Assembly: GCF_900292015.1 (NCBI RefSeq)
Contig: NZ_LR130759.1
Location: forward strand, 4,712,001-4,776,000
Direction of reading: 5' to 3'
Source: Mycobacterium basiliense
GTDB taxonomy: Bacteria; Actinomycetota; Actinomycetes; Mycobacteriales; Mycobacteriaceae
Length of the DNA stretch: 64,000 bases
Every line of letters begins with the position of its first letter. Position 1 is the first letter of the stretch. Both the position numbers and the translations under genes were made by a program. The notes beneath the pieces were generated by a model. It saw only the letters and a list, made by a program, of their open reading frames with translations. It made no database searches and had not been told where the DNA came from. Of this stretch, positions 11,077-47,049 are shown one piece after another.

Positions 11077-11091
11077 GAAAATTTCATTCTC
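11077..11091. promoter_or_regulatory. Operator-like palindrome, one mismatch to GAGAAT-N3-ATTCTC
   Basis: Sequence GAAAATTTCATTCTC, differing from the recurring palindrome at one base. It lies 30 bases upstream of the aldehyde dehydrogenase start, the same spacing as the perfect copy in front of the FadE operon at 15915. Confidence 0.55.
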
Positions 11092-11252
11092 ATCTCTGGC
11101 GAATCTTACATTCGAGCACTGAGAGTTCAAGGCAGTCAATGTACCGAATTGGCTCGCTGATCAGCTAAGCAATCGCTCAGCGCCGACCTGAACACGTCCG
11201 TTGGCCCAGGCCCTGGGCGGTTTCGTCGCGAGCTTGCGAGCCGCTCGACCGC

Positions 11253-11267
11253 GAGAGTAAGGTTCTC
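11253..11267. promoter_or_regulatory. Degenerate operator-like palindrome, two mismatches
   Basis: GAGAGTAAGGTTCTC is itself a perfect 6-base inverted repeat (GAGAGT/GTTCTC allowing one non-pairing base at the inner end) and differs from GAGAAT-N3-ATTCTC at two inner positions. It sits about 85 bases upstream of the SDR start. Confidence 0.35.
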
Positions 11268-11297
11268 ATTATTGTAAGGGCGATTCTTTATGATTGA

Positions 11298-11324
11298 GAT
11301 CGATTCCCGTGGATCGATTCCCGT
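11298..11324 (+). repeat. 13-base tandem direct repeat
   Basis: GATCGATTCCCGT occurs at 11298-11310 and again at 11312-11324, in the leader of the SDR gene. Could be a slippage product or paired binding sites; no function can be assigned. Confidence 0.6.
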
Positions 11325-11350
11325 CGACCGAAGGCTTGGATGTTACGGAG

Positions 11351-12052
11351 ATGAAGACTGCGGTCGTCACCGGTGGTGGATCGGGCATCGGACTTGCCGT
11401 TGCGCACCGCCTCCGGGCCGACGGCTTCAACGTCGCCACCCTCGACCGCAAACCGTCCGACAACGAATTCGCCTACACCGCGGACGTGACGGACCGTTCT
11501 CAGGTTGATGCCGCACTGTCGGCAATCCGCGACCGACTGGGACCAATCACGATCTTGATCAACGCCGCGGGCCTGGACGGATTCAAGCGGTTCAGCAACA
11601 TCACGGTCGACGACTGGCACCGGGTCATCGACGTCAACCTCAACGGGGTCTTCCATACGACCCAAGCCGTGCTGCCCGACATGGTGGCGGCCGGCTGGGG
11701 CCGGATCGTGAACATTTCATCGTCAAGCACACATTCCGGCACTCCCTATATGGCCCACTATGTGGCGGCAAAATCCGCGGTGAACGGACTCACCAAGACG
11801 CTGGCGCTCGAGTACGGGCCCAGCGGGATCACCGTCAACGCGGTACCTCCCGGGTTCATTGACACCCCGATGCTGCGCCACGCCGCCGAGCAGGGATTTC
11901 TCGGCGACATCGAGCAGAGCATTGCTAGTACTCCGGTGCGCCGGATGGGCAAGCCGGAAGACATCGCGGCGGCATGCGCGTTTCTGGTGTCCGAGGAAGC
12001 CGGCTACATCACCGGCCAAATTCTGGGTGTCAACGGCGGTCGAAACACCTGA
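11351..12052 (+). CDS. Short-chain dehydrogenase/reductase
   Basis: Classical SDR of 233 residues from the ATG at 11351 (MKTAVVTGGGSGIGLAV), chosen because the cofactor motif TGGGSGIG then begins at residue 7 as in the family; the frame is open further upstream. Active-site residues: Ser in NISSSSTHSG and the Tyr-x3-Lys of HYVAAKSAV. C-terminal GQILGVNGGRNT is typical. Probably NAD(P)-dependent oxidation of a hydroxyl. First gene of an SDR-ferredoxin-P450 operon, so it may oxidise the alcohol made by the P450. Confidence 0.88.
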   Translation: MKTAVVTGGGSGIGLAVAHRLRADGFNVATLDRKPSDNEFAYTADVTDRSQVDAALSAIRDRLGPITILINAAGLDGFKRFSNITVDDWHRVIDVNLNGVFHTTQAVLPDMVAAGWGRIVNISSSSTHSGTPYMAHYVAAKSAVNGLTKTLALEYGPSGITVNAVPPGFIDTPMLRHAAEQGFLGDIEQSIASTPVRRMGKPEDIAAACAFLVSEEAGYITGQILGVNGGRNT

Positions 12053-12070
12053 ACCTAGGAGGAAAGAACC

Positions 12071-12124
12071 GTGCGAGAACCCGCGCCAGGCCACGTCGCC
12101 CTCGCTAGCCAGGAGGCAGCGTGA
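12071..12124 (+). CDS. 17-codon mini-ORF before ferredoxin
   Basis: GTG start at 12071 preceded by a consensus ribosome site AGGAGG (12057-12062, 8-base spacing) and ending in a TGA that overlaps the ferredoxin GTG (GTGA at 12121-12124). The peptide reads VREPAPGHVALASQEAA. The ferredoxin also has its own AGGAGG inside the mini-ORF. It could be a leader that couples translation from the SDR gene; no protein-level evidence. Confidence 0.4.
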   Translation: MREPAPGHVALASQEAA

Positions 12125-13745: not shown

Positions 13746-14921
13746 TCAGCCGCGGGGTAACCCGAGCACACGCTGCGCAATGATGTTGCGCTGAATCTCG
13801 GATGTTCCGCCGGCAATGGTGCCGGAAAAGCTGCGGGCATAACGTTCGAACCAGCTGGCGAAGTAGTGATCCAGATTCATCGGCGCGTACGGTCCAGTCA
13901 AGGCGGGATGAACGAGCCCGTCGGGTCCGGCCGAGGATAAGGCATGCTCGCTAGCATGCAGTTCCGCCTCGGAACCCAGCAGCTTGAGCACCGAAATCGC
14001 GGCGGTGTCGTCCTCGCCGCGGGCAGCGCGAGCCAGGGCCACCGAACCCAACAGGCGTAGCGCTTGTTTGTCCAAAACCATAGTGGCGTAGCGATCTCGG
14101 TCCAGCGCGGTCACGGGATCAAAATCGGCGACCAGGTTGTCCAAACGATCGGCAAAGCCCAGCCACATCATGGTGCGCTCATGCCCGAGTGACCCGTTGG
14201 CCACTCGCCACCCCTGGTTGAGTGGACCGACAAGATTCTCCGCCGGCACCCGCACGTCGGTGAAGAACACCTCGTTGAAATCCAGGTCCTCGGCCGAGCA
14301 AATGGACGGGAAGGGCCTGCGCACCACGCCAGCGATATCGGTAGGGATCAGTAAGGCGCTGATGCCCTTGTGCTTTGGCGCCCCGGGATCGGTGCGCACG
14401 AAGGTCAACAGCACGTCGGCGTCGTGGGCGCCAGAGGTCCATACCTTTTGCCCGTTGACAACGAAGTGATCGCCGTCGAGCACCGCTCGGGTACGTAACG
14501 ACGCTAGATCGGATCCGGCGCTAGGCTCACTCATGCCGAGCGAAGCGGTAATCTCCGCGCGCAGAATCGGCACCGCCCAACGATGCTTCTGCTCGTCACT
14601 TCCGAACGACAGCAACGACGCCGCAACGATGTTGACACCTTGCGGGTTCAGACTGTGGTAGATCCGCCGGCGGCACAGTTCCTCAAGGTGGACAAACTGC
14701 TGAACCACTGTCGCGTTGCGCCCGCCGAACTCGGGTGGTTGGCCGGGCAACAGCCAGCCGTTGTCGAACAGCCGCCGCTGCCAGCGGCGCGCCCAGGGGG
14801 GCATGTGCGAAACTGACCGCGGTCTCTCCACGGTTTCGCTTGCGGGCGGTAGGTTTTCATCAAGAAAGGCCGCGAACTCCGCACGGAACGCCTCGACCTC
14901 GGGGTCAAAAGTCAGCTGCAC
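13746..14921 (-). CDS. Acyl-CoA dehydrogenase, FadE type (large-subunit partner)
   Basis: 391-residue FAD enzyme introducing a 2,3-double bond into an acyl-CoA. Typical segments: SLGMSEPSAGSDLASLRTRA (flavin/substrate loop, about 133-152), VNGQKVWTSGAHDAD and the C-terminal GTSEIQRNIIAQRVLGLPRG. GTG start at 14921 with AGGAG just upstream; it overlaps the upstream FadE gene by 17 bases. Such overlapping unequal FadE pairs form alpha2-beta2 enzymes that act on bulky, steroid-like CoA esters (known for the cholesterol FadEs). A close paralogue is encoded at 44939-46126. Confidence 0.93.
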   Translation of the reverse strand: MQLTFDPEVEAFRAEFAAFLDENLPPASETVERPRSVSHMPPWARRWQRRLFDNGWLLPGQPPEFGGRNATVVQQFVHLEELCRRRIYHSLNPQGVNIVAASLLSFGSDEQKHRWAVPILRAEITASLGMSEPSAGSDLASLRTRAVLDGDHFVVNGQKVWTSGAHDADVLLTFVRTDPGAPKHKGISALLIPTDIAGVVRRPFPSICSAEDLDFNEVFFTDVRVPAENLVGPLNQGWRVANGSLGHERTMMWLGFADRLDNLVADFDPVTALDRDRYATMVLDKQALRLLGSVALARAARGEDDTAAISVLKLLGSEAELHASEHALSSAGPDGLVHPALTGPYAPMNLDHYFASWFERYARSFSGTIAGGTSEIQRNIIAQRVLGLPRG

Positions 14922-15915
14922 GGTACTCCTCGGCGATCTGGGCTCGATGCTCGGCGGCGCCGCCCAGCATCAGCTCACCCGCCTTGGCCCGCTTGAGCGC
15001 GAACTGCAGGTCGTTCTCCCACGTGAATCCCATTGCGCCGAATAGCTGTAACCCGTGCCGAAACACCAGGGACTGACACTCCCCCGCCGCTGCTTTTGCC
15101 ATCGCGGCGGCCAGCCGCCGGCGGGGATCATCCGCGGAGATCGTCAGCGCGGCAAAGTAAGCCAGTGCCCGGGCGCGTTGCACCGCAACGTGCATGTCCG
15201 CGGCCTTGTGCTGCACGGCCTGAAAGGAGCCAATCGGCACTCCGAACTGATGACGACTGCGAACATGGTCGAGCACCAGATCGAGGATCCGCTGACAGGC
15301 GCCAACCATGGTGATCGCCATGCCGGTCAGGGCGACATGGCGAGCGCGCTCGCGGTCAACAGCTACCCGGGCACGGTCGGGTAGCCGTACGTCACAAAAG
15401 GACAAGTCCGCGACGTGCAGGACTGGGTCGAAGACGGACTCGCGGCGCGCCGAGACCCGGCTGGCGTCGACGACGAATACCCCGGCGTCGGTCACCACCG
15501 CCAAACGGTCGACCCGATCGCCGTCGAGAACATGGCGTGCCGTGCCGTCCAGCAGCCAGGCGTCGCCGCCCCGGCGCGCGGTGACCCCGCTGTAGACGGC
15601 GGTGCCCGACTGGTGCGGGTCGAACCGATCGGCGGCCAGCGGCGCAAACTGGCTCATGGTCGCCAGAAAGGGGGTGGGATCGGTGGCATGACCCAACTCC
15701 TCGAGGACGATCGCCAACTCCACCGCGCCGGCCGGTTCATTGAGCTCGGTCCAGCCGAGGTCGACATACGCCTTCCAAAGGGGCTCCCACAATGGCCCCG
15801 GGTCGGCGCCGTCCTCGGCGACTGCCCGAACCAGTGCGGGCGGGCACTGCTTGGTGACGACGTCGCGCACTGTGTCCTGCCACAGGCGCTGATCAGCATC
15901 GAACTCCAAAAGCAT
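14905..15915 (-). CDS. Acyl-CoA dehydrogenase, FadE type (small-subunit partner)
   Basis: 336-residue shortened acyl-CoA dehydrogenase. The N-terminal helical and C-terminal helical domains (RHQFGVPIGSFQAVQHKAAD, about 221-240; MGFTWENDLQFALKRAK) are clear, while the middle beta-domain is cut down, as in the non-identical subunits of alpha2-beta2 FadEs. ATG start at 15915; first gene of the two-gene operon. A perfect GAGAAT-N3-ATTCTC palindrome lies 31 bases upstream. Confidence 0.9.
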   Translation of the reverse strand: MLLEFDADQRLWQDTVRDVVTKQCPPALVRAVAEDGADPGPLWEPLWKAYVDLGWTELNEPAGAVELAIVLEELGHATDPTPFLATMSQFAPLAADRFDPHQSGTAVYSGVTARRGGDAWLLDGTARHVLDGDRVDRLAVVTDAGVFVVDASRVSARRESVFDPVLHVADLSFCDVRLPDRARVAVDRERARHVALTGMAITMVGACQRILDLVLDHVRSRHQFGVPIGSFQAVQHKAADMHVAVQRARALAYFAALTISADDPRRRLAAAMAKAAAGECQSLVFRHGLQLFGAMGFTWENDLQFALKRAKAGELMLGGAAEHRAQIAEEYRAADF

Positions 15916-15945: not shown

Positions 15946-15960
15946 GAGAATAGCATTCTC
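15946..15960. promoter_or_regulatory. Perfect operator palindrome GAGAAT-AGC-ATTCTC
   Basis: Perfect 6-base inverted repeat in the 110-base divergent region between the FadE pair (start 15915) and the NTF2-like gene (start 16026). One of three perfect copies in the window; its position over the likely FadE promoter suggests repression of both directions. Confidence 0.7.
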
Positions 15961-16025: not shown

Positions 16026-16526
16026 ATGCCGGACACTGCAACGAAACTGTGGGAGATCGAGGCGATCAAACAACTGAAGGCCCGGTACTGCCGCTACCTG
16101 GATACCAAGCGGTGGGACGACTGGCGACAACTGTTCACCGACGGCTTCGTCAGCGATACCTCGCAGGCGGGTGGACGGCTGATCTCGGGCGCCGACGAGT
16201 TCGTGGCCTATGTGCGCAACACGTTGGGCAAGCCGTCACAGCCCACGGTGCACCAAGTGCATACCCCCGAGATCACGCTGACGTCGGCGACCACCGCGAC
16301 CGGCATCTGGGCGCTCGCGGATGTCGTACGTTTGGGCCCCGGCGTCAACCTCAACGGGCATGGTCACTATCACGAAACCTACGCGAAGCTTGACGGCGGG
16401 TGGCTAATCGAATCCTCGACCTTGACCCGACTCCGGGAGGATCTGTTCAATCCGTTCTTCTCGGTGCGTATTTCACCCCGGCTGCGCAACACCGGGGCCT
16501 TTCTGGCTCGCGGGTTGGGGCGGTAA
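16026..16526 (+). CDS. NTF2/SnoaL-like protein
   Basis: 166-residue cone-shaped alpha+beta fold protein of the SnoaL-like superfamily: an N-terminal helix (EIEAIKQLKARYCRYLDTKRWDDWRQLFTDG), then repeated beta strands ending in DGGWLIESSTLTRLRED. Members include isomerases, hydratases and aldolase partners; the active residues cannot be assigned here. Only 3 bases separate it from the following epimerase-like gene, so it heads a three-gene operon. Confidence 0.85.
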   Translation: MPDTATKLWEIEAIKQLKARYCRYLDTKRWDDWRQLFTDGFVSDTSQAGGRLISGADEFVAYVRNTLGKPSQPTVHQVHTPEITLTSATTATGIWALADVVRLGPGVNLNGHGHYHETYAKLDGGWLIESSTLTRLREDLFNPFFSVRISPRLRNTGAFLARGLGR

Positions 16527-16529
16527 TCG

Positions 16530-17633
16530 ATGGGCTCTGCCACCGTGCTTGTCTCTGGTGCTTTCGGCCAGGTCGGTAAGCGTTGCGCCGAAATCCTTTT
16601 ACACCGTGGCTACACCGTGGTCGCCATGGACCTCCGCAACGACACTTCAGCAAACACCGCTACGAACTTGGCCGAGATCTGTTGCGCGGGCTCGCTGATG
16701 GTGGAGTTCGCCGATCTCACCGATGCCGAGGCGGTCGGTGCCGTGCTAACCCGGCACCGCCCCAGCGCGATCGTGCACCTAGCGGCAATCGTTTCCCCAC
16801 CCTGCTACCACAATCCTCGGCTGGCCCGCAAGGTAAACGTGGACGGCACCAACAACCTCGTGCGTGCCGCGCAGTCCTTGGCCGACCCGCCGATGTTCGT
16901 GTTCGCTTCCAGCGCGGCCGTCTACGGTTCCCGCAACCCGTACCGGCGGCCGGATCTCATCACCGGCCACACGCCGGTGAACCCGGTCGACCGGTATGGC
17001 CAGGACAAGGTCTTAGCCGAAGCCGTGATCTCAGCCAGTAGCATGCCATACGCCATTCTGCGACTGGGTGGGGTGATCTCGCCCGACACGTCGGCCCGAC
17101 TCGACGCCGATTACTTGCTGCTCATGCGGGCCACCCCGGCCGACAACCGGATGCATTCGGTCGACGCCCGCGACGTCGCACTGGCCTTCGCCAACGCCGT
17201 AGACCGCAGAGCGTCCGTTGCCGGCAAGGTGCTGGTGATCGCCGGCAATGACACCTACCTGCATCTGATGAGCGAACTGCAGGACGACGTCATGGCCACC
17301 GTCGGCCTCGGCCGACTCGGCCCGTCGGCCGGACTGCCCGGCGATCCCGAGGATGACCACGGTTGGGCATTTACCGGATGGTTCGACACCACCGAATCCC
17401 AATCCTTGCTCGACTATCAACAGCACGACTGGGCTGACACGCTGGTTTGGCTTGGGAACGCCGTGGGCCGGCGCCGCATTCTGCTGCGCGCACTCGGCCC
17501 GGTAGTCCGTCCGACAATGCGGCTGGCATTGGCCCTGCAGCGTCGACTCGAGCGCCGCGGCCCGTATGCCGACCCGTGGGCCCTCATCGAGCAGAAGTAC
17601 GGCCCCGATGCGCTCGTGGCCACCACCTGCTGA
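16530..17633 (+). CDS. NAD-dependent epimerase/dehydratase family protein (extended SDR)
   Basis: 367-residue extended SDR. Rossmann motif SGAFGQVGKR at about residues 9-18; catalytic Tyr-x3-Lys in DRYGQDKVLAE; Ser in VFASSAAVYGS. A C-terminal region of about 110 residues (after about 260) forms the substrate part. Could act on a nucleotide sugar or on a hydroxysteroid-like alcohol; the neighbourhood favours the latter (inference). Confidence 0.85.
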   Translation: MGSATVLVSGAFGQVGKRCAEILLHRGYTVVAMDLRNDTSANTATNLAEICCAGSLMVEFADLTDAEAVGAVLTRHRPSAIVHLAAIVSPPCYHNPRLARKVNVDGTNNLVRAAQSLADPPMFVFASSAAVYGSRNPYRRPDLITGHTPVNPVDRYGQDKVLAEAVISASSMPYAILRLGGVISPDTSARLDADYLLLMRATPADNRMHSVDARDVALAFANAVDRRASVAGKVLVIAGNDTYLHLMSELQDDVMATVGLGRLGPSAGLPGDPEDDHGWAFTGWFDTTESQSLLDYQQHDWADTLVWLGNAVGRRRILLRALGPVVRPTMRLALALQRRLERRGPYADPWALIEQKYGPDALVATTC

Positions 17634-17639
17634 GCACTG

Positions 17640-18647
17640 ATGACCACGACACCAACCAAGAAGTTGGTCATCGGCGGCAGCGGCTTCCTGGGCTCACATG
17701 TCACGCGCCAACTGGTAGCGGCCGGCGCAGATGTGCGAGTCATGGTGCGGCGCACCAGCATCACCAGAGGAATCGATGACCTTGTCCAGGCCGACATTGT
17801 TGAGCTCCGTTACGGCGATGTCTTCGACGATGCCGCGTTGCGTTGGGCCATGACTGGGTGCGATGTCGTCTACTACTGCGTGGTCGACGCCCGGATGTGG
17901 TTACGCGACCCCACGCCGTTGTTCCGCACCAATGTCGAAGGCCTGCGGCATGTGCTCGACGCCGCCCTCGCCACGCAGCTGCGCAAATTCGTATTTACCA
18001 GTAGCACAGGAACATTAGCTATCGATGACCGCCGACCCGTCACCGAAGAGGACGTGCACAACTGGGATGACGGCGGCGCCTATATTCAATCCCGGGTCGC
18101 CGCAGAGGATCTGGTCATGAAATACGCCCGGGAAAGGGGCTTTCCGGCGGTGGCAATGTGCATCTCGACCACCTACGGCCCTGGCGACTGGGCGCCAACA
18201 CCGCATGGCTCGCTTATCGCCAGCGTCGCCAACGGACGATTTCCGTTCTATCTCGGCTTCTCTTCCGAGGTGGTCGGAATCGAAGATGCCGCCCGTGCAA
18301 TGCTTCTTGCGGCGGAACATGGTCGAGTCGGCGAGCGCTACATCGTCTCCGATCGCTACCTGAGCAGCCGGGAGGTGCACGACATCGCGGCTCGCGCCGT
18401 AGGCAAGCGCCCACCACATATACCCATCCCGATGCCGGCAATGCGCGCCGCAGCGCGTCTGAACGATTTTGCGGCCCGGCTGCTACGCCGCGACTTGCCA
18501 TTCGCCTACGTCGGAGCGCGGATGGCCGAACTGATGTCACCGCTGGACCACAGCAAGGCCGAACGTGAACTCGGCTGGAAACCCGAGCCGGTCGAAGAAT
18601 CGATCCGCAAGGCCGCCCGATTCTTTGCATCGCGCTCAACCAAATAG
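17640..18647 (+). CDS. Extended SDR (3-beta-HSD/epimerase-like) with Tyr-x3-Arg
   Basis: 335-residue protein with Rossmann motif GGSGFLGSH (about 12-20) and the extended-SDR Ser region FTSSTGT. The active-site Tyr148 is followed by Arg152 (YIQSR) where the family has Lys. The remainder (YGPGDWAPTPHGSLI, C-terminal RELGWKP) is intact. Six bases after the previous SDR; its end overlaps the convergent nitroreductase end by 12 bases. Arg may replace Lys functionally or indicate altered chemistry. Confidence 0.83.
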   Translation: MTTTPTKKLVIGGSGFLGSHVTRQLVAAGADVRVMVRRTSITRGIDDLVQADIVELRYGDVFDDAALRWAMTGCDVVYYCVVDARMWLRDPTPLFRTNVEGLRHVLDAALATQLRKFVFTSSTGTLAIDDRRPVTEEDVHNWDDGGAYIQSRVAAEDLVMKYARERGFPAVAMCISTTYGPGDWAPTPHGSLIASVANGRFPFYLGFSSEVVGIEDAARAMLLAAEHGRVGERYIVSDRYLSSREVHDIAARAVGKRPPHIPIPMPAMRAAARLNDFAARLLRRDLPFAYVGARMAELMSPLDHSKAERELGWKPEPVEESIRKAARFFASRSTK

Positions 18648-21900: not shown

Positions 21901-21921
21901 GAGAATGATATTATCATTCTC
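21901..21921. promoter_or_regulatory. 21-base palindromic operator
   Basis: Arms GAGAATGATA and TATCATTCTC around a single T, a perfect 10-base inverted repeat, 146 bases upstream of the amidohydrolase start. Its outer halves equal those of the recurring GAGAAT-N3-ATTCTC site but are spaced 9 apart; read in the shorter register, its first 15 bases match the 15-base site with one mismatch, so it may be two overlapping sites. Confidence 0.6.
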
Positions 21922-23167: not shown

Positions 23168-23200
23168 TCGCAGAATGGAAGTGAGGGAGGCCGAAGAGAC

Positions 23201-24346: not shown

Positions 24347-24348
24347 AA

Positions 24349-24747
24349 TTGACCGAAGACACCAAGCGGCCCCAGCCACGCCTCGCCCAGGGCCGCGAGC
24401 ACGTGGTCGCCACAGTAGACGAGATTCCGCCCGGCGCGCACAAGCTCGTGCCGATCGGACGCCACGGCGTGGGCGTCTACAACGTCAACGGAGCGTTCTA
24501 CGCCATCGCGAATTACTGCCCCCACCAAGGCGGTCCGCTGTGTTCGGGTCGTGCCCGGGGCCGCACCATCGTAGATGAAAGCGCGCCTGGTGACGCGGTT
24601 ATGGTACGCGACCTGGAGTTCGTCTTCTGCCCATGGCACCAATGGGGTTTCGAGCTTGCCACCGGCACCACCGCGGTCAAGCCGGAGTGGAGCATTCGCA
24701 CCTACCCAGTTCGGGTGATCGGCAACGACGTGCTGGTGATGGCGTGA
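24349..24747 (+). CDS. Rieske [2Fe-2S] ferredoxin
   Basis: 132-residue Rieske protein. Cluster ligands Cys57-x-His59 (CPHQGG) and Cys94-x2-His97 (CPWH), with a longer loop between them than most ferredoxins of this type. TTG start at 24349, 2 bases after the amidohydrolase stop. It probably feeds electrons to an oxygenase; the nearest candidate in the window is the Rieske oxygenase at 39633, which has no ferredoxin of its own. Confidence 0.9.
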   Translation: MTEDTKRPQPRLAQGREHVVATVDEIPPGAHKLVPIGRHGVGVYNVNGAFYAIANYCPHQGGPLCSGRARGRTIVDESAPGDAVMVRDLEFVFCPWHQWGFELATGTTAVKPEWSIRTYPVRVIGNDVLVMA

Positions 24748-30537: not shown

Positions 30538-30607
30538 GCGGGTTGATGCGAATCGGTCTCAACGAGCGTTCCGGTCCTTTTCGGCCCACCACGAAAGAGC
30601 TACCGTT

Positions 30608-30639: not shown

Positions 30640-30672
30640 TCTAGCCCGTAACTGGCCGCCGAGGAGTACGCA

Positions 30673-31875: not shown

Positions 31876-31884
31876 GGGTGCGCT

Positions 31885-37295: not shown

Positions 37296-38594
37296 TCAGT
37301 CCTTGTTACCGGTAAGCGCTTTCGCATTGGCCGTAAAGTCTGCGACCGACGAACCCGCCCTGGCCTGCTTGTGATGACTGAGCGCCCGAATGGATACGTC
37401 GTGGCCCTCTGCGGCCTTCCGCAGCGCTCCAACCGTCGCCTGCTCGCGGGCGATGTGGGTGAAGGGGTCGAACGAGTACCAACGCATGGCGTTTTCATGC
37501 GTCATCTTGTTGATCTCATCGTCGGGCACTTCATTGCGCGACAGGACATCCCAAAGCTCCTCTGGCGCGCCGGGCCACATCGAGTCGCTGTGCGGGTAGT
37601 CGGCCTCCCAGCAGATGTTGTCGATGCCGATCATGTTGCGCAGCTGCACACCCACCTTGTCGCTGATGAAACAGGTCAAGAAGTGCTCGCGGAAGACCTC
37701 GCTAGGCAGCTTGCCGCCAAAGTTCTGGTGGGTCCACGTCGAGTGCATCTCGAAGGTGCGGTCGGCACGCTCCAGGAAGTAGGGGATCCAGCCGGTGCCG
37801 CCCTCGGAGAGGGCGACCTTCAGCTCCGGGAACTCTTTGATCGGCCGCGACCACAGTAGATCGGCCGCGGCCTGCACGATGTTCATCGGCTGCAACGTGA
37901 TCATCACGTCCATCGGCGCATCCGGCGCGGTGATCGCCAATCTGCCCGAGGATCCGATGTGCACGTTCATTACGGTGTTGGTGTCGCACAACGCCTTCCA
38001 CAACGGATTCCAATGCGCGTCGTGAAAGCTCGGGTAGCCCATCGCCGCCGGGTTTTCGGTGAAGGTCAGCGCGTGTACACCCTTCTTGGCAACACGGCGC
38101 ACCTCCGCGGCGCACGCCTCGGCATCCCAGATCACCGGCAACGCCATCGGGATGAAGCGCGCCGGATACGCGCCGCACCACTCGTCGATGTGCCAATCGT
38201 TGTAGGCCTGCACCAGGGCCACCGAGAAATCCAGATCTTCGGTGGCGAACAGGCGTCCGGCAAAGCCCGGAAAGGACGGAAAGCAGATCGAGGCGAGTAT
38301 GCCCCCGGCGTTCATGTCTTTAATGCGCTCATCGACGTTGTAGCAACCTGGGCGAATCTCGTCGAGACCTTGCGGCTCGAGGCCGTACTCCTCCTTGGGC
38401 CGGCCGGCCACCGCGTTGAGCGCCACATTGGGTATCACCGTGTCGCGAAACTTCCACATATCCGAACCGTCGGGGTTGTGCACCAGCCGCGGCGCGTCAT
38501 CCAGGTACTTGGCCGGCAAGTGGTCCTTGAACATGTCCGGGGGCTCAACCGTGTGGTCATCCACGCTGATCAGGACCATGTCGTCTTTGTTCAT
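37296..38594 (-). CDS. Amidohydrolase-2 family enzyme
   Basis: 432 residues from ATG 38594 (AGAGG 7 bases upstream; open frame to 38660). Motifs: ISVDDHTVEPPDMF at about 8-21, central MNVHIGSSG His, SEGGTGWIPYFLERAD and C-terminal CWEADYPHSDSMWP with the active-site Asp. Belongs to the same large actinobacterial family as those at 23201 and 56676. Single-gene unit closed by the hairpin at 37208-37267. Confidence 0.87.
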   Translation of the reverse strand: MNKDDMVLISVDDHTVEPPDMFKDHLPAKYLDDAPRLVHNPDGSDMWKFRDTVIPNVALNAVAGRPKEEYGLEPQGLDEIRPGCYNVDERIKDMNAGGILASICFPSFPGFAGRLFATEDLDFSVALVQAYNDWHIDEWCGAYPARFIPMALPVIWDAEACAAEVRRVAKKGVHALTFTENPAAMGYPSFHDAHWNPLWKALCDTNTVMNVHIGSSGRLAITAPDAPMDVMITLQPMNIVQAAADLLWSRPIKEFPELKVALSEGGTGWIPYFLERADRTFEMHSTWTHQNFGGKLPSEVFREHFLTCFISDKVGVQLRNMIGIDNICWEADYPHSDSMWPGAPEELWDVLSRNEVPDDEINKMTHENAMRWYSFDPFTHIAREQATVGALRKAAEGHDVSIRALSHHKQARAGSSVADFTANAKALTGNKD

Positions 38595-39015: not shown

Positions 39016-39034
39016 ATGAGAATATCATTCTCAT
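39016..39034. promoter_or_regulatory. Perfect operator ATGAGAAT-ATC-ATTCTCAT
   Basis: The longest copy of the recurring site: 8-base perfect arms containing GAGAAT-N3-ATTCTC (39018-39032), 44 bases upstream of the first gene of the Rieske-oxygenase operon. Confidence 0.7.
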
Positions 39035-39077: not shown

Positions 39078-39605
39078 ATGCGCCTGCCGCCGCTGCCCGC
39101 CGACCGATGGGATGAGGCTGTCCAACGCGCGCTGTCCGGCATGCTGCCCCCAGAACGGTGCAATCCGCGCGACGCGGGCAACGCACTGTCGACATTTGCC
39201 AATCATCCCGCCCTGGCCAAGGCGTTCCTGAGGTTCAATACCCACCTGCTGTTCGCATCCACGCTGCCGCCTCGCGTTCGCGAACTCGCCATCTTGCGGG
39301 TCGCCCATCGTCGCGCCTGCGGCTACGAGTGGAACCACCACGTCTTGCTGGCGCAACGAGCGGGGGTTAGCGACGACGAGATCGCCGCGCTTCGCCGCGG
39401 CGATGCTGCCGACGACTTCGAACGAGCGGTGCTTGCCGGCGTCGACGAACTCGATGCGAAGTCGGAGCTGTCCGACGAAACCTGGGCCGCGCTCGGCGAA
39501 CGCCTAGACGACCGGCAGCGCATGGACTACGTCTTCACGGTCGGCTGCTATGCGCTACTGGCCATGGCCTTCAACACTTTTGGCGTGCAGCTCGAACGCG
39601 ACTGA
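39078..39605 (+). CDS. Carboxymuconolactone decarboxylase/AhpD-like protein
   Basis: 175 residues from ATG 39078 (GAGGAG 9 bases upstream). CMD-domain signature RVRELAILRVAHRRACGYEWNHHVLLAQ with Cys81, Glu84 and His87/88; there is only one Cys, so it is not a CxxC peroxidase reductant but the gamma-carboxymuconolactone decarboxylase-like type. First gene of the seven-gene operon. Confidence 0.86.
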   Translation: MRLPPLPADRWDEAVQRALSGMLPPERCNPRDAGNALSTFANHPALAKAFLRFNTHLLFASTLPPRVRELAILRVAHRRACGYEWNHHVLLAQRAGVSDDEIAALRRGDAADDFERAVLAGVDELDAKSELSDETWAALGERLDDRQRMDYVFTVGCYALLAMAFNTFGVQLERD

Positions 39606-39632
39606 CCAGACGTAAAGAGAGGTAGAAACACC

Positions 39633-40913
39633 TTGCCCCACTTCACTAAACCAGCCGCCGGAAGCTGGACCGAAAACTATCCGGACCTCGGCACCGCGCC
39701 GGTCGACTACACCGATTCGATCGACCCCCGCTACTTCGCCGACGAACAGCAGGCGATCTTTTGGCGAACCTGGCTCAATGTCGGGCGCATCGAACGTCTG
39801 CCCCGAATCGGCAGCTACTTCACAAAGGAACTGCCGTCGGCCAGCGCCGGGATGTCAGTGATCGTCGTCAAGGGCAAGGACGGCGTGATCAGGGCCTTCC
39901 ACAACATCTGTCGGCACCGCGGTAACAAGCTGGTGTGGAACGACTTTCCGCACGAGGAGACCGCGGGTATCTGCCGGCAGTTCACCTGTAAATATCACGC
40001 GTGGCGTTACAGCCTGGACGGCGAATTGACCTTCATTCAGCAGGAGGGCGAGTTCTTCGACGTCGACAAGAGCCATTACGGTCTCAAGCCGGTGCGCTGC
40101 GAGGTGTGGGAAGGCTTCATCTTTGTCAACCTGGACGCGAATGCCGGACCCCTCACCGAATATCTGGGCTCAATGGCCAAAGGCATTGAGGGCTATCCCT
40201 TTGGCGAGATGACCGAGGTCTACTCCTACAAGGCCGAGGTCGGCAGCAACTGGAAGCTGTTCATTGACGCGTTCGCCGAGTTCTATCACGCGCCGGTGCT
40301 ACACCAAGGCCAATACACCAAGGAAGAAGCTGCCAAGATCATCAAGTACGGCTTCGAAGCGCTGCACTACGAGTTGGCCGGTCAACACTCGATGATCTCC
40401 GTCTGGGGCGGGCAATCACCACCGGCAGACCTAAACATGGTGAAGCCCATGGACCGCGTGTTGCGCAGCGGGCTGTTCGGCCCCTGGGACCGCCCCGACG
40501 TGATCAATCAGCTCAACGAGCTACCGCCCGGTGTCAACCCGACCAAGGCCAGGCAGTGGGGCATCGACTCGTTTCTCTTCTTCCCGAACTTCATGCTGCT
40601 GATCTGGGCGCCGGGCTGGTACCTGACCTACCACTACTGGCCAACCACAGTTGATAAGCACATCTTCGAAACCACGCTGTATTTCGTGCCCCCCAGAAAT
40701 GCGCGCGAGCGGTTGGCCCAGGAGCTGGCGGCCGTGACGTTCAAGGAGTATGCGCTGCAGGACGCGAACACTTTGGAAGCCACCCAAACCATGATCGGTA
40801 CCGGGGTCGTCAAGGATTTTCCGTTGTGCGACCAGGAAATCCTGCTCCGCCATCTGCACAAGATGACCGCGGACTACGTAAAGGAGTACCGCAACAATGG
40901 CCACCCCAAGTAG
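39633..40913 (+). CDS. Rieske non-haem iron oxygenase, alpha subunit
   Basis: 426-residue ring-hydroxylating oxygenase. Rieske ligands Cys93-x-His95 and Cys119-x2-His122; mononuclear iron ligands His219 and His224 in DAFAEFYHAPVLH with Asp212 as electron bridge. TTG start at 39633 with AGAGAGG about 9 bases upstream. No reductase or ferredoxin lies in the operon. It is not KshA by its motifs; likely hydroxylates a ring or activated carbon of the pathway substrate. Confidence 0.92.
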   Translation: MPHFTKPAAGSWTENYPDLGTAPVDYTDSIDPRYFADEQQAIFWRTWLNVGRIERLPRIGSYFTKELPSASAGMSVIVVKGKDGVIRAFHNICRHRGNKLVWNDFPHEETAGICRQFTCKYHAWRYSLDGELTFIQQEGEFFDVDKSHYGLKPVRCEVWEGFIFVNLDANAGPLTEYLGSMAKGIEGYPFGEMTEVYSYKAEVGSNWKLFIDAFAEFYHAPVLHQGQYTKEEAAKIIKYGFEALHYELAGQHSMISVWGGQSPPADLNMVKPMDRVLRSGLFGPWDRPDVINQLNELPPGVNPTKARQWGIDSFLFFPNFMLLIWAPGWYLTYHYWPTTVDKHIFETTLYFVPPRNARERLAQELAAVTFKEYALQDANTLEATQTMIGTGVVKDFPLCDQEILLRHLHKMTADYVKEYRNNGHPK

Positions 40914-41232
40914 CCTGCCCGCCCAATTCGCCGACCTGGAACCCCACCTCGGTTGGGACCTGGCCACCGAGCCCGAGCGCTACGCCAAGCGGCTGTCCTC
41001 GTCCATGTCAGAGATGCAAGCCTTCTACGACGCCGCGTTCCCACGTCTGGAGGACGTAATCGCCTACTGTGACGAGTACCCGCTGGACGATTTGCCCGAG
41101 GACGCAAAGACTTTGATGCACATGATGCAGTCGCTAGTCATGGTGTCGTTTCCGGTGGAAGCGTGGAAACAGCCCCGGGTCCCCGACAGCGGCGCCGCGT
41201 GGGTGGAGCTGATCCGGGAGCCGGTGATCTGA
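40897..41232 (+). CDS. Small conserved protein partner of Rieske oxygenase
   Basis: 111 residues, overlapping the Rieske gene by 17 bases. Mostly helical, acidic (FADLEPHLGWDLATEPERYAKRLSSSMSEMQAFYDAAFPRLEDVIAYCDEYPLDDLPEDAKTL split over two helices). No known domain recognised. The overlap implies a subunit or accessory protein of the oxygenase. Confidence 0.75.
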   Translation: MATPSSLPAQFADLEPHLGWDLATEPERYAKRLSSSMSEMQAFYDAAFPRLEDVIAYCDEYPLDDLPEDAKTLMHMMQSLVMVSFPVEAWKQPRVPDSGAAWVELIREPVI

Positions 41233-41235
41233 CCG

Positions 41236-42456
41236 GTGCTAACGCTTAGGGCCGCCGGACTGCTGGACGTCGACGCCGGCGAGATCATGCGGCCGGGTGT
41301 GGTCCGCATCGACGGCGACCGGATCACCGGCGTCGGCGGGGAACCCGAAGGCGACGTGATCGACCTTGGCGACCAGGTCCTGCTGCCTGGGCTGATGGAC
41401 ATGGAGGTCAACCTGCTGATGGGCGGGCGCGGCGAGAAGCCCGGGCTATCGCAGGTCCAAGACGACCCGCCGACCAGGGTTTTGCGCGCCATCGGCAATG
41501 CCCGTCGCACGCTACGTGCCGGTTTTACCACCGTGCGCAACCTCGGTCTGTTCGTTAAGACCGGCGGATACCTACTCGACGTCGCGTTGAGCAATGCCGT
41601 CGACGCGGGCTGGATCGATGGCCCACGGATTGTGCCGGCCGGACATGCCATTACCCCCACCGGCGGGCATCTGGACCCCACCATGTTCGCCGCGTTTGCA
41701 CCGCATGTGCTGGAACTGACCGTCGAGGAAGGCATCGCCAACGGCGTTGATGAGATCCGCAGGGCGGTGCGCTACCAGATCAAGCACGGGGCTCAGCTGA
41801 TCAAGGTGTGCTGTTCGGGCGGGGTGATGTCATTGACGGGACCGCCTGGTGCACAGCACTATTCCGATGACGAGCTGCGCGCGATCGTCGATGAGGCCCA
41901 CCGACGTGGGTTGCGCGTCGCCGCGCACACCCATGGCGCCGAAGCCGTCAAACATGCGGTGGCCGCCGGCATCGACTGCATCGAGCACGGCTTTCTGATC
42001 GACGACGAGGCGATCGCGATGATGGTCGAGCACGGGACCTTTCTGGTGAGCACCCGCCGCCTAGCCGACGCCAATGCGATGGATATCTCCCACACTCCGC
42101 CCGAGCTACAGGCCAAGGCCGCCGAGATGTTCCCCCGCTCGCGCACATCGATACTGGCCGCGCACGACGCTGGAGTCAGGATCGCGGTCGGGACCGATGC
42201 TCCGGCGATACCGCACGGCCGCAACGCCGACGAGCTGGTCACCCTTGTCGATTGGGGCTTGCCACCGCTGGCGGTGCTGCGGGCGGCGACGGTGACCGCG
42301 GCCGAGCTGATCAACGTCACCGATCGCGGCAGGCTCGTCGAGGACCAGCTCGCCGACATCATCGCAGTGCCAGGAGACCCGTTGGCGGACATCACCGTTA
42401 CCCGCAACGTCGGCTTTGTCATGAAAGGCGGCAAGATTCATGTCCGGCCGAACTGA
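41236..42456 (+). CDS. Amidohydrolase (imidazolonepropionase/prolidase-like) with E-x-N
   Basis: 406-residue TIM-barrel hydrolase. Visible ligands: Lys190 (carboxylated type, LIKVCCSGG), His231/His233 (AAHTHG), His251 (IEHG) and Asp321 (GTDAP). The first metal motif, normally D-x-H-x-H, reads Asp55-Met-Glu57-Val-Asn59. Loss of both His alters the alpha-metal site. GTG start at 41236, 3 bases after the previous stop. Distinct from the amidohydrolase-2 proteins elsewhere in the window. Confidence 0.87.
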   Translation: MLTLRAAGLLDVDAGEIMRPGVVRIDGDRITGVGGEPEGDVIDLGDQVLLPGLMDMEVNLLMGGRGEKPGLSQVQDDPPTRVLRAIGNARRTLRAGFTTVRNLGLFVKTGGYLLDVALSNAVDAGWIDGPRIVPAGHAITPTGGHLDPTMFAAFAPHVLELTVEEGIANGVDEIRRAVRYQIKHGAQLIKVCCSGGVMSLTGPPGAQHYSDDELRAIVDEAHRRGLRVAAHTHGAEAVKHAVAAGIDCIEHGFLIDDEAIAMMVEHGTFLVSTRRLADANAMDISHTPPELQAKAAEMFPRSRTSILAAHDAGVRIAVGTDAPAIPHGRNADELVTLVDWGLPPLAVLRAATVTAAELINVTDRGRLVEDQLADIIAVPGDPLADITVTRNVGFVMKGGKIHVRPN

Positions 42457-42859
42457 GGACCTGGTCGAGATCCAGCAACTGCTCGCTCGGTATGCAGTCA
42501 CCATCACCCAGGAGGACATCGACGGTCTGGTCAGCGTGTTCACGACCGACGGGACCTACAGCGCGTTCGGCGACACCTACACCTTGGACCGATTTCCCGA
42601 CCTGGTGGCCGCCGCACCGAAAGGCCTGTTCCTCACCGGAACCGCTGTGGTGGAGTTGGACGGCGATTCGGCCAGCGGCACCCAGCCGCTGTGCTTCATC
42701 GAACACGCCACCCATGACATGCGAATCGGCTACTACCGCGACACGTATTCGCGCACCGCCGACGGCTGGCGTCTGAAAACCCGGGCGATGACGTTTATAC
42801 GGCGCAGCGGCGTACACGACTCGGGTCGTCCGCACGCGATAGGCCGCCCCCAACCGTGA
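42440..42859 (+). CDS. SnoaL/NTF2-like protein
   Basis: 139 residues. N-terminal EDLVEIQQLLARYAVTITQEDIDGLVSVFTTDGTYSAFG is the typical first helix-strand of the SnoaL-like fold; ends with a beta sheet (ADGWRLKTRAMTFIRR). Overlaps the amidohydrolase by 17 bases and the next FadE by 4 (GTGA), so tightly coupled. Possibly a hydratase/isomerase. Confidence 0.85.
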   Translation: MSGRTEDLVEIQQLLARYAVTITQEDIDGLVSVFTTDGTYSAFGDTYTLDRFPDLVAAAPKGLFLTGTAVVELDGDSASGTQPLCFIEHATHDMRIGYYRDTYSRTADGWRLKTRAMTFIRRSGVHDSGRPHAIGRPQP

Positions 42860-43971
42860 CTATCGATGTCGCGCAATTCCGGGCGGACTTGCGGGCGTGG
42901 CTCGACGACAATGACCTGACACCTGGGCCCGATCACTCGCTGCAGGGTCAGCTGCGCCAACTAGCCCGCGTGCACGCCGCTCTGTACGAAGCGGGTTGGA
43001 TGCGCTACGGCTGGCCCGTCGAAGTCGGTGGATTGGGCGGACCCGCGCTCCTGCGCGCGATCGTCGGCGAGGAAGTGGTCGGCCGACGACTCGCCGAACC
43101 CGGCCCGTACTCGATGGCCGAGGTACTGGCTCCCACGATGATCGATTACGCGCCGGCGCAACTCGCGGCCGAAATGGTGCCGCGTCTACTCAGCGGTCGC
43201 GAGCAGTGGTGTCAAGGCTTTTCCGAACCCGGATCGGGAAGTGACTTGGCGTCGTTGTCCACCCGCGCCACCCGGCGCGGGGACAGCTGGATCGTCAACG
43301 GACAAAAGGTCTGGACCAGCTTCGCGCAGTTCTCCACCAGGTGTGTCCTGCTTACCCGGACAGCGCCGGGGCATGACGGAATCACCGCATTTCTCGTCGA
43401 TCTCGAGACGCCGGGAATCAGCATCCGGCCGCTGCGCACCATGCACGGGGTCGACGAATTCTGCGAGGTGTACTACGACGAGGTGGTGATCCCGTCGGAT
43501 CGGATGCTCGGCCAGCCGGGTGACGGCTGGCGGCTGGCGATGGACCTGCTGCCCTACGAGCGCTCAACGTGTTTTTGGCAACGCATCGCCTATCTGTATT
43601 CCAGGTTCGATCAACTCATTGCAGACCGCACCGGCAGCTCGGCAAGCTCCGAACTCGACGAGTTCGACCTCGGCTCTGCCTATCTAGCGCTGCACACATT
43701 GCGCAGTCGTTCCTGGCAAACCCTGCATCGGTTGGCCGACGGCGCACGACTGGGACCGGAAACCTCGATCGACAAGGTGCTATTGGCATCCGCCGAGCAA
43801 CGACTTTACGACACCGTGCGCGACCTGCTGCCGGGAGCGCTCGAACTCGAGGACACACCCTGGCGATCCGAATACCTGTATTCGCGCGCGGCAACCATCT
43901 ACGGCGGTACCGCCGAAGTTCAGCGCAACATCATCGCTCGTCGGCTGCTCAACCTCGGGAAGGAGGGTTGA
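42856..43971 (+). CDS. Acyl-CoA dehydrogenase, FadE type (large-subunit partner)
   Basis: 371 residues. CQGFSEPGSGSDLASLSTRA (about 115-134), VNGQKVWTSFAQ and C-terminal IYGGTAEVQRNIIARRLLNLG. GTG start overlaps the SnoaL-like stop; the next FadE-like gene begins at its stop (TGATG). Together they form a second alpha2-beta2 type pair in the window. Confidence 0.92.
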   Translation: MTIDVAQFRADLRAWLDDNDLTPGPDHSLQGQLRQLARVHAALYEAGWMRYGWPVEVGGLGGPALLRAIVGEEVVGRRLAEPGPYSMAEVLAPTMIDYAPAQLAAEMVPRLLSGREQWCQGFSEPGSGSDLASLSTRATRRGDSWIVNGQKVWTSFAQFSTRCVLLTRTAPGHDGITAFLVDLETPGISIRPLRTMHGVDEFCEVYYDEVVIPSDRMLGQPGDGWRLAMDLLPYERSTCFWQRIAYLYSRFDQLIADRTGSSASSELDEFDLGSAYLALHTLRSRSWQTLHRLADGARLGPETSIDKVLLASAEQRLYDTVRDLLPGALELEDTPWRSEYLYSRAATIYGGTAEVQRNIIARRLLNLGKEG

Positions 43972-44789: not shown

Positions 44790-44938
44790 CGCCGAACCGC
44801 GGCAACCACCGCTGCCCCACCCGTCTCCGGCGGCGCCGGTATCCCGTTTGCCCGCCTCCTAGCGACAACCAGGGTCGGCAACGGATTTGTTCACGAGGCG
44901 ACGCGCAAAGTGGCAGCTGCGACTGCCTGAAGTGTGCA

Positions 44939-46126
44939 TCAATTGCGCGGCAGCCCGAGGATCCGCTCGGCGATGATGTTCCGCTGAATTTCTGACGTAC
45001 CGCCCGCGATGGTGCCGGCAAAACTGCGCGCATAGCGATCGAACCAGCTGCCGTAATAGTCGTCGAGGCTCAGCGGAGCGACCTTCGCGGTCATCGCCGG
45101 ATGCACCAGCCCGCCGGTGCCCGCGGCACTAAGCGCGTCTTCGGAGGCGCGTTGCAACGCCTCCGAGCCCAGCAGCTTGAGCACCGACTGTCCGGGTACG
45201 TCCTCGTGTCCGCGCGCGGCCCGCGCCAGAGCCGCCGACCCCAACAGTCGCATCGCCTGGGCGTCCATTACCAGTGTGGCGTAGCGATCCCGTTGGAGCG
45301 GTCCCGTCGGCGTGAAATCGGTTGTCAGCTCGTCTAACAGGTTGGCGTAGTCCAGCCACAACATGGTGCGTTCATGCCCCAGGGAGCCGGTCGCCACCCG
45401 CCAGCCCCGGTTGAGTTCACCCACCAGATTCGCAGCCGGAACACGCACGTCGGTGAAGAAGACCTCGTTGAATTCAACATCGCCACGATCGCACACCGAC
45501 GCGAACGGTCGCCGAACAACCCCCCGGGTGTCGGTGGGGATCAGCAATACACTGATGCCCTTGTGTTTTGGAGCATGGGGGTCGGTGCGGACGAACGTCA
45601 GCAACACGTCCGCGTCATGGGCACCCGACGTCCAGACCTTTTGACCGTTGACCACGAAGTGGTCGCCGTCCGAATCCGAGTCGAGCACCGCCCGCGTTTT
45701 CAGTGCGGCCAGATCGGAGCCCGCACCCGGTTCACTCATCCCCAGCGAGGCGGTGATCTCGGCCCGCAGGATGGGCACGGCCCACCGTCGCTTCTGCTCC
45801 GGGGTGCCAAATGACAGTAACGATGCCGCGATGATGCCGACACCCTGCGGGTTGAAGCTGCGATAGATCCGTCTGCGGGCCAGCTCTTCGGCGTGCACGT
45901 ACTGCTGCAACAACGAGGCGTTGCGGCCGCCGAACTCCGGCGGATTACCGGGAAGCAGCCAACCGCGGTCAAACATCAGCCGTTGCCACCGGCGGGCCCA
46001 CTGCGGCACGTGCGAGCACGAACGCGGCCGCTCCATCCCAACCGCCTCGCCAGGCAAATGCTCATCGAGAAAAGCAATGAATTCTTCGCGGAATGCCTCA
46101 ACATCGGCATCAAAGGTCAGCTGCAC
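44939..46126 (-). CDS. Acyl-CoA dehydrogenase, FadE type (paralogue of 13746-14921)
   Basis: 395 residues from GTG 46126 (GAGGAG upstream; the frame is open to 46282). By eye, roughly three quarters of residues match the FadE at 13746-14921, including WARRWQR, EFGGRNA and KVWTSGAHDADVLLTFVRTD, and even the start context GTGCAGCTGAC(T/C)TTTGA is shared. A small insert DSDSDGD is unique to this copy. It lacks an adjacent small subunit on its strand. A perfect operator palindrome lies 53 bases upstream. Confidence 0.92.
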   Translation of the reverse strand: MQLTFDADVEAFREEFIAFLDEHLPGEAVGMERPRSCSHVPQWARRWQRLMFDRGWLLPGNPPEFGGRNASLLQQYVHAEELARRRIYRSFNPQGVGIIAASLLSFGTPEQKRRWAVPILRAEITASLGMSEPGAGSDLAALKTRAVLDSDSDGDHFVVNGQKVWTSGAHDADVLLTFVRTDPHAPKHKGISVLLIPTDTRGVVRRPFASVCDRGDVEFNEVFFTDVRVPAANLVGELNRGWRVATGSLGHERTMLWLDYANLLDELTTDFTPTGPLQRDRYATLVMDAQAMRLLGSAALARAARGHEDVPGQSVLKLLGSEALQRASEDALSAAGTGGLVHPAMTAKVAPLSLDDYYGSWFDRYARSFAGTIAGGTSEIQRNIIAERILGLPRN

Positions 46127-46178
46127 GGCACTCCTCGGCGCCCACTCATTTGACTTTGCTTCCCAAACATACGGCAAA

Positions 46179-46193
46179 GAGAATAGTATTCTC
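46179..46193. promoter_or_regulatory. Perfect operator GAGAAT-AGT-ATTCTC
   Basis: Perfect copy in the 123-base divergent region between the FadE (start 46126) and the TetR gene (start 46250 or 46229). A TetR protein beside its own palindrome is the usual arrangement, making this regulator the best candidate reader of all copies. Confidence 0.7.
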
Positions 46194-46249
46194 GCCATGA
46201 GGAAGTTACAATCTCCAAGACATCGTCCATGAGGAGGTCGAGCGCAGCG

Positions 46250-46969
46250 ATGGCACGACGTTCTCCGGTACAGTCCAACCATGTTCTCCCCTCGAGGCCG
46301 TCAACCGAGCCGCCCGTGACCAATCCGAGCGAAGAGCCCGCCTGGAAGCAGCGCGCCGTCGAGCGGTCCATCAAGACCGCGAAATTGCGGGCAGCACAGC
46401 GCGTTCAGCGATTTCTGGATGCCGCACAGGCCATCATTATCGAAAAGGGCAGCACGGACTTTACCGTCCAGGAAGTGGTGGACCGGTCGCGCCAATCGTT
46501 GCGCAGTTTCTATCTACAGTTCGACGGCAAACACGAGCTTTTGCTGGCGCTGTTCGAGGACGCACTGAGCCGGTCGGCCGACCAGATCCGTGCCGCCACG
46601 GAAAACCACACCGACCCACTCGAGCGGCTCAAGGTCGCCATTGAGCTGTTATACGACGCTTCCCGCCCCGATCCGACCGCCAAACGACCCCTATTCACCG
46701 ACTTTGCGCCGCGGCTGCTAGTCACCCATCCGGCCGAGGTCAAGGTCGCCCACGCACCATTGATGGCATTGCTCGCCGAACTCATGGAGGCCGCGGCCGA
46801 GGCCGGCGAGCTGCGCTCCGGCGTCAACGCCAAGCGGATGGCCGCCATGACCATGCAGACGGTCATGTTCATCGCGCAGTCCAGCGGCGGAGCCGACGAG
46901 GCGACCGCGCATCCCATTACCGCCGACGAGGTATGGGACTTCTGTTCGCGCGGATTCGCCGGCCCTTAG
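46250..46969 (+). CDS. TetR-family transcriptional regulator
   Basis: 239 residues from ATG 46250; GAGGAGG lies 12 bases upstream, and an earlier ATG at 46229 has no ribosome site. A basic, Pro/Ser-rich lead of about 45 residues precedes the helix-turn-helix QRFLDAAQAIIIEKGSTDFTVQEVVDRSRQSLRSFYLQFDGKHELL (split about 52-97). The long N-terminal arm is unusual. Divergent from FadE with a shared palindrome. Confidence 0.88.
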   Translation: MARRSPVQSNHVLPSRPSTEPPVTNPSEEPAWKQRAVERSIKTAKLRAAQRVQRFLDAAQAIIIEKGSTDFTVQEVVDRSRQSLRSFYLQFDGKHELLLALFEDALSRSADQIRAATENHTDPLERLKVAIELLYDASRPDPTAKRPLFTDFAPRLLVTHPAEVKVAHAPLMALLAELMEAAAEAGELRSGVNAKRMAAMTMQTVMFIAQSSGGADEATAHPITADEVWDFCSRGFAGP

Positions 46970-47020
46970 ACCACGTCACCCCCGCGTACCGATGCATCGC
47001 CCCAACGCAGGATCCTGCGC

Positions 47021-47049
47021 ATCTTATGAGAACATACTTCTCATAAGAT
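47021..47049. promoter_or_regulatory. 29-base palindrome upstream of P450
   Basis: Arms ATCTTATGAGAA (47021-47032) and TTCTCATAAGAT (47038-47049) are perfect 12-base complements around CATAC. The core GAGAACATACTTCTC has two mismatches to the recurring operator, and TGAGAAC repeats right after the right arm (47050-47056 region). Lies 130 bases upstream of the P450 start. Confidence 0.6.

Follow-up and report, generated by a model that had tools for sequence, protein, structure and literature searches.

Which regulator reads the 15-base palindrome GAGAAT-N3-ATTCTC, which recurs in front of operons in a 64,000-nucleotide stretch of the Mycobacterium basiliense genome, and how far does its control reach? 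The window, meaning the whole of that stretch, corresponds to positions 4,712,001-4,776,000 of contig NZ_LR130759.1, the single contig of 5,607,630 bases that was scanned as the genome. A preliminary description of the window had proposed one local regulon spread over 36 kb, with the TetR-family gene starting at 46250 as the best candidate reader of the motif. The candidacy of this gene is supported here by promoter position and site conservation, and the palindrome is very probably the operator, of the form GAGAAT-RNY-ATTCTC, through which the TetR protein encoded at 46250-46969 would control a catabolic regulon.

A palindrome concentrated in promoter regions

Scanning of the window recovered perfect copies at 15946, 39018 and 46179, whereas none of 100 dinucleotide shuffles contained any. 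Allowing one mismatch added the copies at 11077 and 21901 (shuffle mean 0.07, maximum 1), and allowing two mismatches raised the count to nine by adding 11253, 21907, 27885 and 47028 (shuffle mean 1.15, maximum 5); the copy at 21907 overlaps that at 21901. Matches with three mismatches were set aside as noise (18 in the window, shuffle mean 12.3). On this rescan all previously reported site coordinates were correct, as was the earlier estimate of about 0.004 chance perfect matches in 64 kb at equal base use. At the real base composition, the chance expectation for perfect copies is about 0.0008 for the window, with 0.07 for the whole genome. The sites had also been described as lying in promoters and not within genes, and this location holds, two of them appearing intragenic only when the longest open reading frame is chosen.

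Genome-wide, 6 perfect copies, 7 one-mismatch copies and 88 sites with at most two mismatches were counted (backward-read control, 5). Five of the six perfect copies fall within 108,006 bases, for which the scan-corrected chance is about 8e-7. The one-mismatch copies are divided between the cluster (3/7) and the remaining genome (4/7), where 4,959,008 is inside a well-called gene, 3,654,595 inside a doubtful short open reading frame, 1,402,326 between convergent genes and 223,010 before a gene. Scaling from the window shuffles predicts roughly 100 genomic sites with at most two mismatches, and isolated sites of this kind are therefore regarded as background unless conserved; part of the 88 individual positions were inspected. 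An even spread that included coding regions had been named beforehand as the pattern that would contradict a regulon. The isolated two-mismatch matches do show it, but the perfect copies are clustered.

The perfect operator GAGAATAGTATTCTC at 46179..46193, located between a divergent acyl-CoA dehydrogenase (FadE) gene and tetR, is the proposed autoregulatory site. It was compared across 80 named Mycobacterium loci of 5.8-20.7 kb each, the best among 424. In 79 of these 80 loci a perfect copy begins 63-79 bp 5' of the tetR ATG, the exception being M. tilburgii, which carries a remnant with three mismatches. On average the 12 core bases are conserved at 0.997, compared with 0.79 in the remainder of the 260 bp aligned upstream of tetR and 0.88 from the operator to the ATG. 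A TACAAT box resembling a -10 element is present 13 nucleotides past the operator in 77/79 loci, which would make the operator overlap the -35 region, spanning roughly -40 to -26; with the -10 element read from conserved sequence, this would be the position of a repressor. The tetR orthologues of 48 sampled genomes were examined over 500 bp of upstream sequence: the best site was perfect in 39, had one mismatch in 6 and two mismatches in 2, and was lacking in 1.

Perfect copies from 12 other genomes were also compared, with 83 of 84 taken and one copy from genome G168 left out. The outer two of the middle three bases prefer a purine and a pyrimidine, respectively (0.82 each), and no flanking base exceeds a frequency of 0.51. 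Judged from these alignments, the motif is very probably a conserved operator, GAGAAT-RNY-ATTCTC.

The TetR protein at 46250 and competing readers

The predicted product of the gene at 46250..46969 (+ strand) matches PF00440 (TetR_N) with 31.1 bits against a cut-off of 24, and its residues 28-117 are dense in invariant positions. The genome contains 104 TetR_N matches (150 of 179 candidates scored). Named homologues and loci come from Mycobacterium or Mycolicibacterium and include those of M. asiaticum and M. gordonae, both at 92% identity, and of M. marinum, M. kansasii, M. triplex, M. celatum and M. lepraemurium. Of 60 Mycobacterium genomes sampled, 50 encode an orthologue with at least 75% identity, the own genome among them; the orthologue in G065 is cut at a contig end. 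The perfect motif is present in 49 of the 50 genomes with the TetR protein (mean 6.3 copies) versus 1 of the 10 without it (Fisher 6.6e-9, uncorrected for kinship). Across 200 genomes of the order, a copy was found in 21/22 Mycobacterium genomes (own included), 2/8 genomes from other genera of the family and 9/170 from other families.

Promoter position links the motif to this gene in particular. Of the five TetR genes in the surrounding 164 kb, only 46250 has a site with at most two mismatches within 400 bp upstream, the domain start having been used for one gene in this comparison. A genome of another genus, G084, holds ten copies of the motif and encodes two homologues, at 73% and 59%, both of which have a perfect site upstream. 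No site was found upstream of three examined paralogues at 33-35%, with many more such paralogues listed, and no TetR match was obtained at the threshold used in G115 (one copy) or G175 (no copy). The helix-turn-helix stretch RQSLRSFYLQF is invariant in 11 sequences compared and nearly unchanged in the two G084 proteins, as KQSLRSFYLQF and GQSLRSFYLLF. Taken together, the upstream site, the sites before the homologues of another genus, including the one at 59%, and the siteless paralogues point to TetR 46250 as the best reader of the motif.

A symmetric variant, GAGAAG-N3-CTTCTC, precedes a tetR-family gene in G016, G022 and G200 (loci L046, L047 and L184), where it is the sole copy in each genome. 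The protein encoded behind the variant carries the substitutions D78E and D92N, which flank the RQSLRSFYLQF stretch. An operator shift following tetR duplication is a possible origin of this variant. As a marker of a second regulon the variant was rejected, as it occurs once in each of 9/63 genomes and stands before a tetR gene of the family in no more than three of them.

Several observations weigh against the assignment to TetR 46250. The neighbouring TetR gene at -9556..-8972 is present in 49/60 genomes with the same pattern of presence and absence, and that at 34135 is present in 46/60 with nearly the same pattern. Because these neighbours co-occur with the motif likewise, co-occurrence mostly reflects the cluster in its entirety, and it is promoter position that singles out TetR 46250. 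G026 encodes the TetR protein with no recognisable site before tetR, G080 encodes it with no perfect copy genome-wide (a one-mismatch copy precedes its tetR gene), and G068, which lacks the TetR protein, contains one perfect copy. An IclR gene has the site upstream in six genomes. The block from -46 to -35 with the -10-like box, conserved at 0.993, is the sole other stretch to match the operator, so that conservation by itself is not specific, and a consensus scanner found no sigma-70 promoter at the tetR site.

A rival explanation is that another regulator of the cluster, namely TetR 34135-34752, TetR -9556..-8972 or the IclR gene at 4792795, reads the motif and that TetR 46250 is one of its targets. 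This is considered unlikely. The -9556 gene follows the motif as closely as TetR 46250 does and the IclR promoter has a perfect site in the six genomes mentioned above, but neither TetR 34135 nor TetR -9556 has a site with at most two mismatches in the 400 bp upstream. G081 and G065 keep 5 and 6 copies with no TetR 34135 found (G065 is 89% complete), and G026 has retained TetR 46250 and one copy while both neighbouring TetR genes are missing at the threshold used. The IclR site is degenerate, with two mismatches in the own genome and three in G161, and no IclR gene was found in the stretches from G006, G029 and G034 (7, 6 and 9 copies), the search having covered these stretches and not the whole genomes.

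Two further explanations were weighed. Function of the palindrome in RNA, as a leader hairpin (attenuator or stability element), would be consistent with its folding into a 6-bp stem with a 3-nucleotide loop and with two of three copies folding better than shuffles (z -2.55 and -2.09). The fold of the third copy is no better than shuffles (z -0.22), however, and the stem positions keep their particular bases, beyond what pairing alone would demand. The tetR operator also lies 13 nucleotides before the -10-like box and hence upstream of the likely transcript start, and no terminator-like tail was found at 46100-46300; an RNA role is accordingly highly improbable. Dispersal as a mobile or repeated element would explain several near-identical 15-mers inside 108 kb and is rated lower still, with hardly any weight left to it: the flanks of the 83 copies have no strong common sequence past the core (highest base frequency 0.51), no shared flanks or target duplications were seen in 8 bases on each side, and the copies hold orthologous promoter positions. 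Reading of the palindrome by TetR 46250 remains the preferred explanation.

Putative target operons within and beyond the window

For the 83 perfect sites from other genomes, a neighbouring gene was counted as an orthologue at 55% identity or more to a gene of the cluster or of a distant operon described below. By this measure 72/83 sites adjoin orthologues of cluster or distant-operon genes. Most sites (78/83) are followed within 350 bp by a called gene pointing away from them, when up to 60 bp inside the called start is allowed, and 64/83 are intergenic according to a simple gene caller that often takes overlong open reading frames. Promoters recurring across the 12 genomes are those of amidohydrolase -12599 (11 genomes), tetR, FadE 14905 (the 15946 site) and CoA ligase 95157 (10 each), ferredoxin 96701 (9) and amidohydrolase 22067 (8). 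Among the 11 unmapped copies, five (L192, L200, L223, L228 and L238, from five genomes) have neighbours that share the same weak best matches and give no match of at least 55% in the cluster stretches compared; they perhaps represent a further regulon unit in another branch. By comparison of these genomes, the motif probably marks a coherent regulon, with sites kept before orthologous operons in several of them.

Contents of the target operons in the window were assigned by Pfam domains. The perfect operator at 15946..15960 separates two FadE genes with overlapping ends (13746..15915, - strand) from a SnoaL-like gene and two epimerase/3-beta-HSD-like genes (16026..18647, +). That at 39018..39032 precedes genes for a CMD-family protein, a Rieske oxygenase, a small protein, an amidohydrolase, a SnoaL protein and a FadE (39078..43971, +), for which the in-frame ATG at 39078 behind GAGGAGA is the likely start, and an amidohydrolase gene diverges on its other side (37296..38594, -). 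An equivalent of this operator with no more than one mismatch is present 6.9-9 kb before tetR in 69 of the 72 named loci long enough to include it, and the orthologous amidohydrolase adjoins a perfect site in 6/12 genomes. At 46179 the divergent FadE gene (44939..46126, -) likely starts at the in-frame GTG at 46126, reading VQLTFDADVEAFRE, 53 bp from the operator; in the longest open reading frame, residue 60 is the first of the FadE N-terminal domain. A start at 46149 was rejected as out of frame.

Imperfect operators were found at the remaining promoters. A two-mismatch operator at 11253..11267 lies between an aldehyde dehydrogenase gene, which is grouped with a CoA-transferase III gene (8295..11047, -), and genes for an SDR, a 4Fe-4S ferredoxin and a P450 (11351..13699, +); a one-mismatch operator at 11077..11091 forms a second site near the aldehyde dehydrogenase start. 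The former recurs as GAGAAY-N3-ACTCTC, with one or two mismatches, in 13/13 orthologous promoters and the latter as a one- or two-mismatch site in 5/13, own included in both counts. No site was found in the promoters of three more distant aldehyde dehydrogenases (53-71% identity). A one-mismatch operator and the overlapping two-mismatch form (21901..21921) precede two amidohydrolase genes, a Rieske ferredoxin and an alpha/beta hydrolase (22067..25631, +); the one-mismatch site is kept in 4/4 relatives examined, in which the overlapping form was not seen. The weakest of the set is the two-mismatch operator at 27885..27899, of which the form GATAAC-N3-ATTCTC occurs in 8/18 orthologous promoters, own included. 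It precedes genes for a DUF35-thiolase fusion, an alpha/beta hydrolase, a P450 and a ferredoxin (27958..32076, +). Finally, the two-mismatch operator at 47028..47042 precedes a CYP130-like P450 and two SDR genes (47179..50083, +), and an equivalent with no more than one mismatch is found 700-1400 bp after the tetR start in 71/80 named loci. Imperfect window sites thus recur as imperfect sites in relatives, some only in close ones; because the same imperfect half-site is kept over many species, these are suggested to be tuned, weaker operators.

The earlier proposal was supported in that the motif marks one regulon, but its extent of 36 kb was too small: outside the window sites continue 11 kb to the left and 33 kb to the right, and a distant operon lies 585 kb away. 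On the left, a perfect site at 4,700,620 fronts amidohydrolase/CoA ligase genes and an enoyl-CoA hydratase unit. Two-mismatch matches at 4,701,156 and 4,701,178 are both inside the enoyl-CoA hydratase gene, and a further one is located at 4,683,940. On the right, a perfect site at 4,808,612 belongs to a CoA ligase/FadE pair/hydratase unit and a 2Fe-2S ferredoxin, and a one-mismatch site at 4,803,470 to an alpha/beta hydrolase gene, for which a later start was assumed since the gene caller puts the site inside the open reading frame. A two-mismatch site at 4,792,693, perfect in the six other genomes, is intergenic and common to an alpha/beta hydrolase gene and the IclR gene (4792669-4792795); TetR 46250 may in this way control a second regulator. 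The distant operon has its perfect site at 5,393,221, before genes for an APH-type phosphotransferase, an SDR, a FadE, a TetR and an alcohol dehydrogenase.

Other features of the window were recorded alongside these units. The DUF35-thiolase gene (27958-29613) encodes a protein of 551 residues in which a ChsH2-like DUF35 domain and a thiolase domain are fused, these being two chains in the solved entry 6ok1. A stand-alone NuoF-like protein (26171-27481), which scores below the curated NuoF cut-off, is encoded amid P450 and Rieske genes and is perhaps an electron donor. At 50893-53325 a single 810-residue protein contains two CoA-transferase III stretches. A Mce/YrbE-type operon (211-7978) stands beside the regulon; its window portion encodes five MlaD-domain proteins plus two MlaE permeases, and no motif copy was assigned to this operon. 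The right window end encodes a large LuxR-type (GerE) regulator (61400-63982) with no nearby motif copy of at most two mismatches.

Proposed mechanism and relation to known systems

TetR-type repressors sit on palindromic DNA as dimers until a ligand releases them, as is also stated in the survey of Balhana et al. (PMC4482099). From the motif, its promoter positions, its conservation and clustering, and its link to one TetR subfamily, we infer binding, repression, a ligand and a substrate as follows. A dimer of TetR 46250 would bind the 15-bp inverted repeat, cover the -35 region upstream of tetR and so regulate itself through 46179. It would probably also lie over about ten catabolic promoters and keep them from being transcribed until released by an intermediate of the pathway, which might be an acyl-CoA or an oxidised ring compound; relief by an intermediate is proposed because of TetR-family behaviour and the -35 position.

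The regulon would serve as a peripheral catabolic route for a hydrophobic ring compound, probably terpenoid- or sterol-like. Its enzyme set comprises P450s, ferredoxins, a Rieske oxygenase, CoA ligases, a CoA-transferase, paired FadE proteins, hydratases, a retro-aldolase-like thiolase and amidohydrolases, and together with the adjoining Mce-type uptake genes points to such a substrate. The DUF35-thiolase resembles the two chains of entry 6ok1, and the paired FadE proteins are presumably of the type known from steroid side-chain breakdown. Judged from enzyme classes, it is plausible that all regulon genes serve one pathway. NCBIfam and PDB searches of the cluster proteins gave no precise enzyme assignments and named no substrate.

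A broader picture has, in our estimate, slightly better than an even chance of being correct. It is that of a genus-wide, KstR-independent regulon that spans about 110 kb with at least eight promoters, is governed by one autoregulated TetR protein and serves an undescribed pathway for a sterol- or terpenoid-like compound in most sampled mycobacteria. Conserved imperfect operators would grade its response, and some genomes would have a duplicated TetR gene with the shifted operator GAGAAG-N3-CTTCTC.

The role of most mycobacterial TetR regulators is called unknown in the portion of PMC4482099 that was available. Mycobacteria can hold about 100 such regulators, and one of them now has a likely operator, target operons and a testable sequence code. 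In many mycobacteria the 15-base palindrome stands in the promoters of an extensive set of genes for lipid-like degradation, and it joins a large group of orphan P450, Rieske, FadE and amidohydrolase genes as a single unit. The operator offers a means of finding the inducer and then the substrate. Earlier surveys built on M. tuberculosis gene numbers or expression could have missed this regulon.

The KstR regulon, of FadE, P450 and CoA-type composition, controls cholesterol catabolism. The present system resembles KstR and KstR2 in having a TetR-family regulator with short palindromic, strongly conserved operators over many lipid-type catabolic promoters (for KstR, the sections of PMC3388012 consulted), and differs from them in the operator itself. 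In the 164 kb the KstR consensus occurs once, within a predicted gene, whereas the KstR2 consensus does not occur. A KstR-type cholesterol regulon is not supported, as these operators are essentially missing from this region. None of the 11 PDB chains matched by TetR 46250 is named KstR or KstR2.

Balhana et al. (2015) report predicted palindromes for 30 mycobacterial TetR regulators, listed by M. tuberculosis gene number, and a second motif survey clusters M. tuberculosis expression data (PMC3388012). The approach of Balhana et al. is the one used here, and the tetR locus is like their set in having a divergent TetR gene with a conserved palindrome toward its neighbour; it differs in that the text consulted of that paper, compared without its motif logos, describes no multi-operon regulon with this motif, although the palindrome may match one of those logos. 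Searches of the open-access literature listed no paper describing the palindrome, and neither does the text consulted of these two papers. The Rv1255c-cyp130 pair of M. tuberculosis also has a TetR gene adjoining a CYP130-type P450 (PMC4482099). CYP130 gave the best solved-structure matches to the P450 of the 47028 unit, and the likeness to that pair is by P450 family only. The type of system is already known from such TetR-family regulators, and the regulon itself is probably new.

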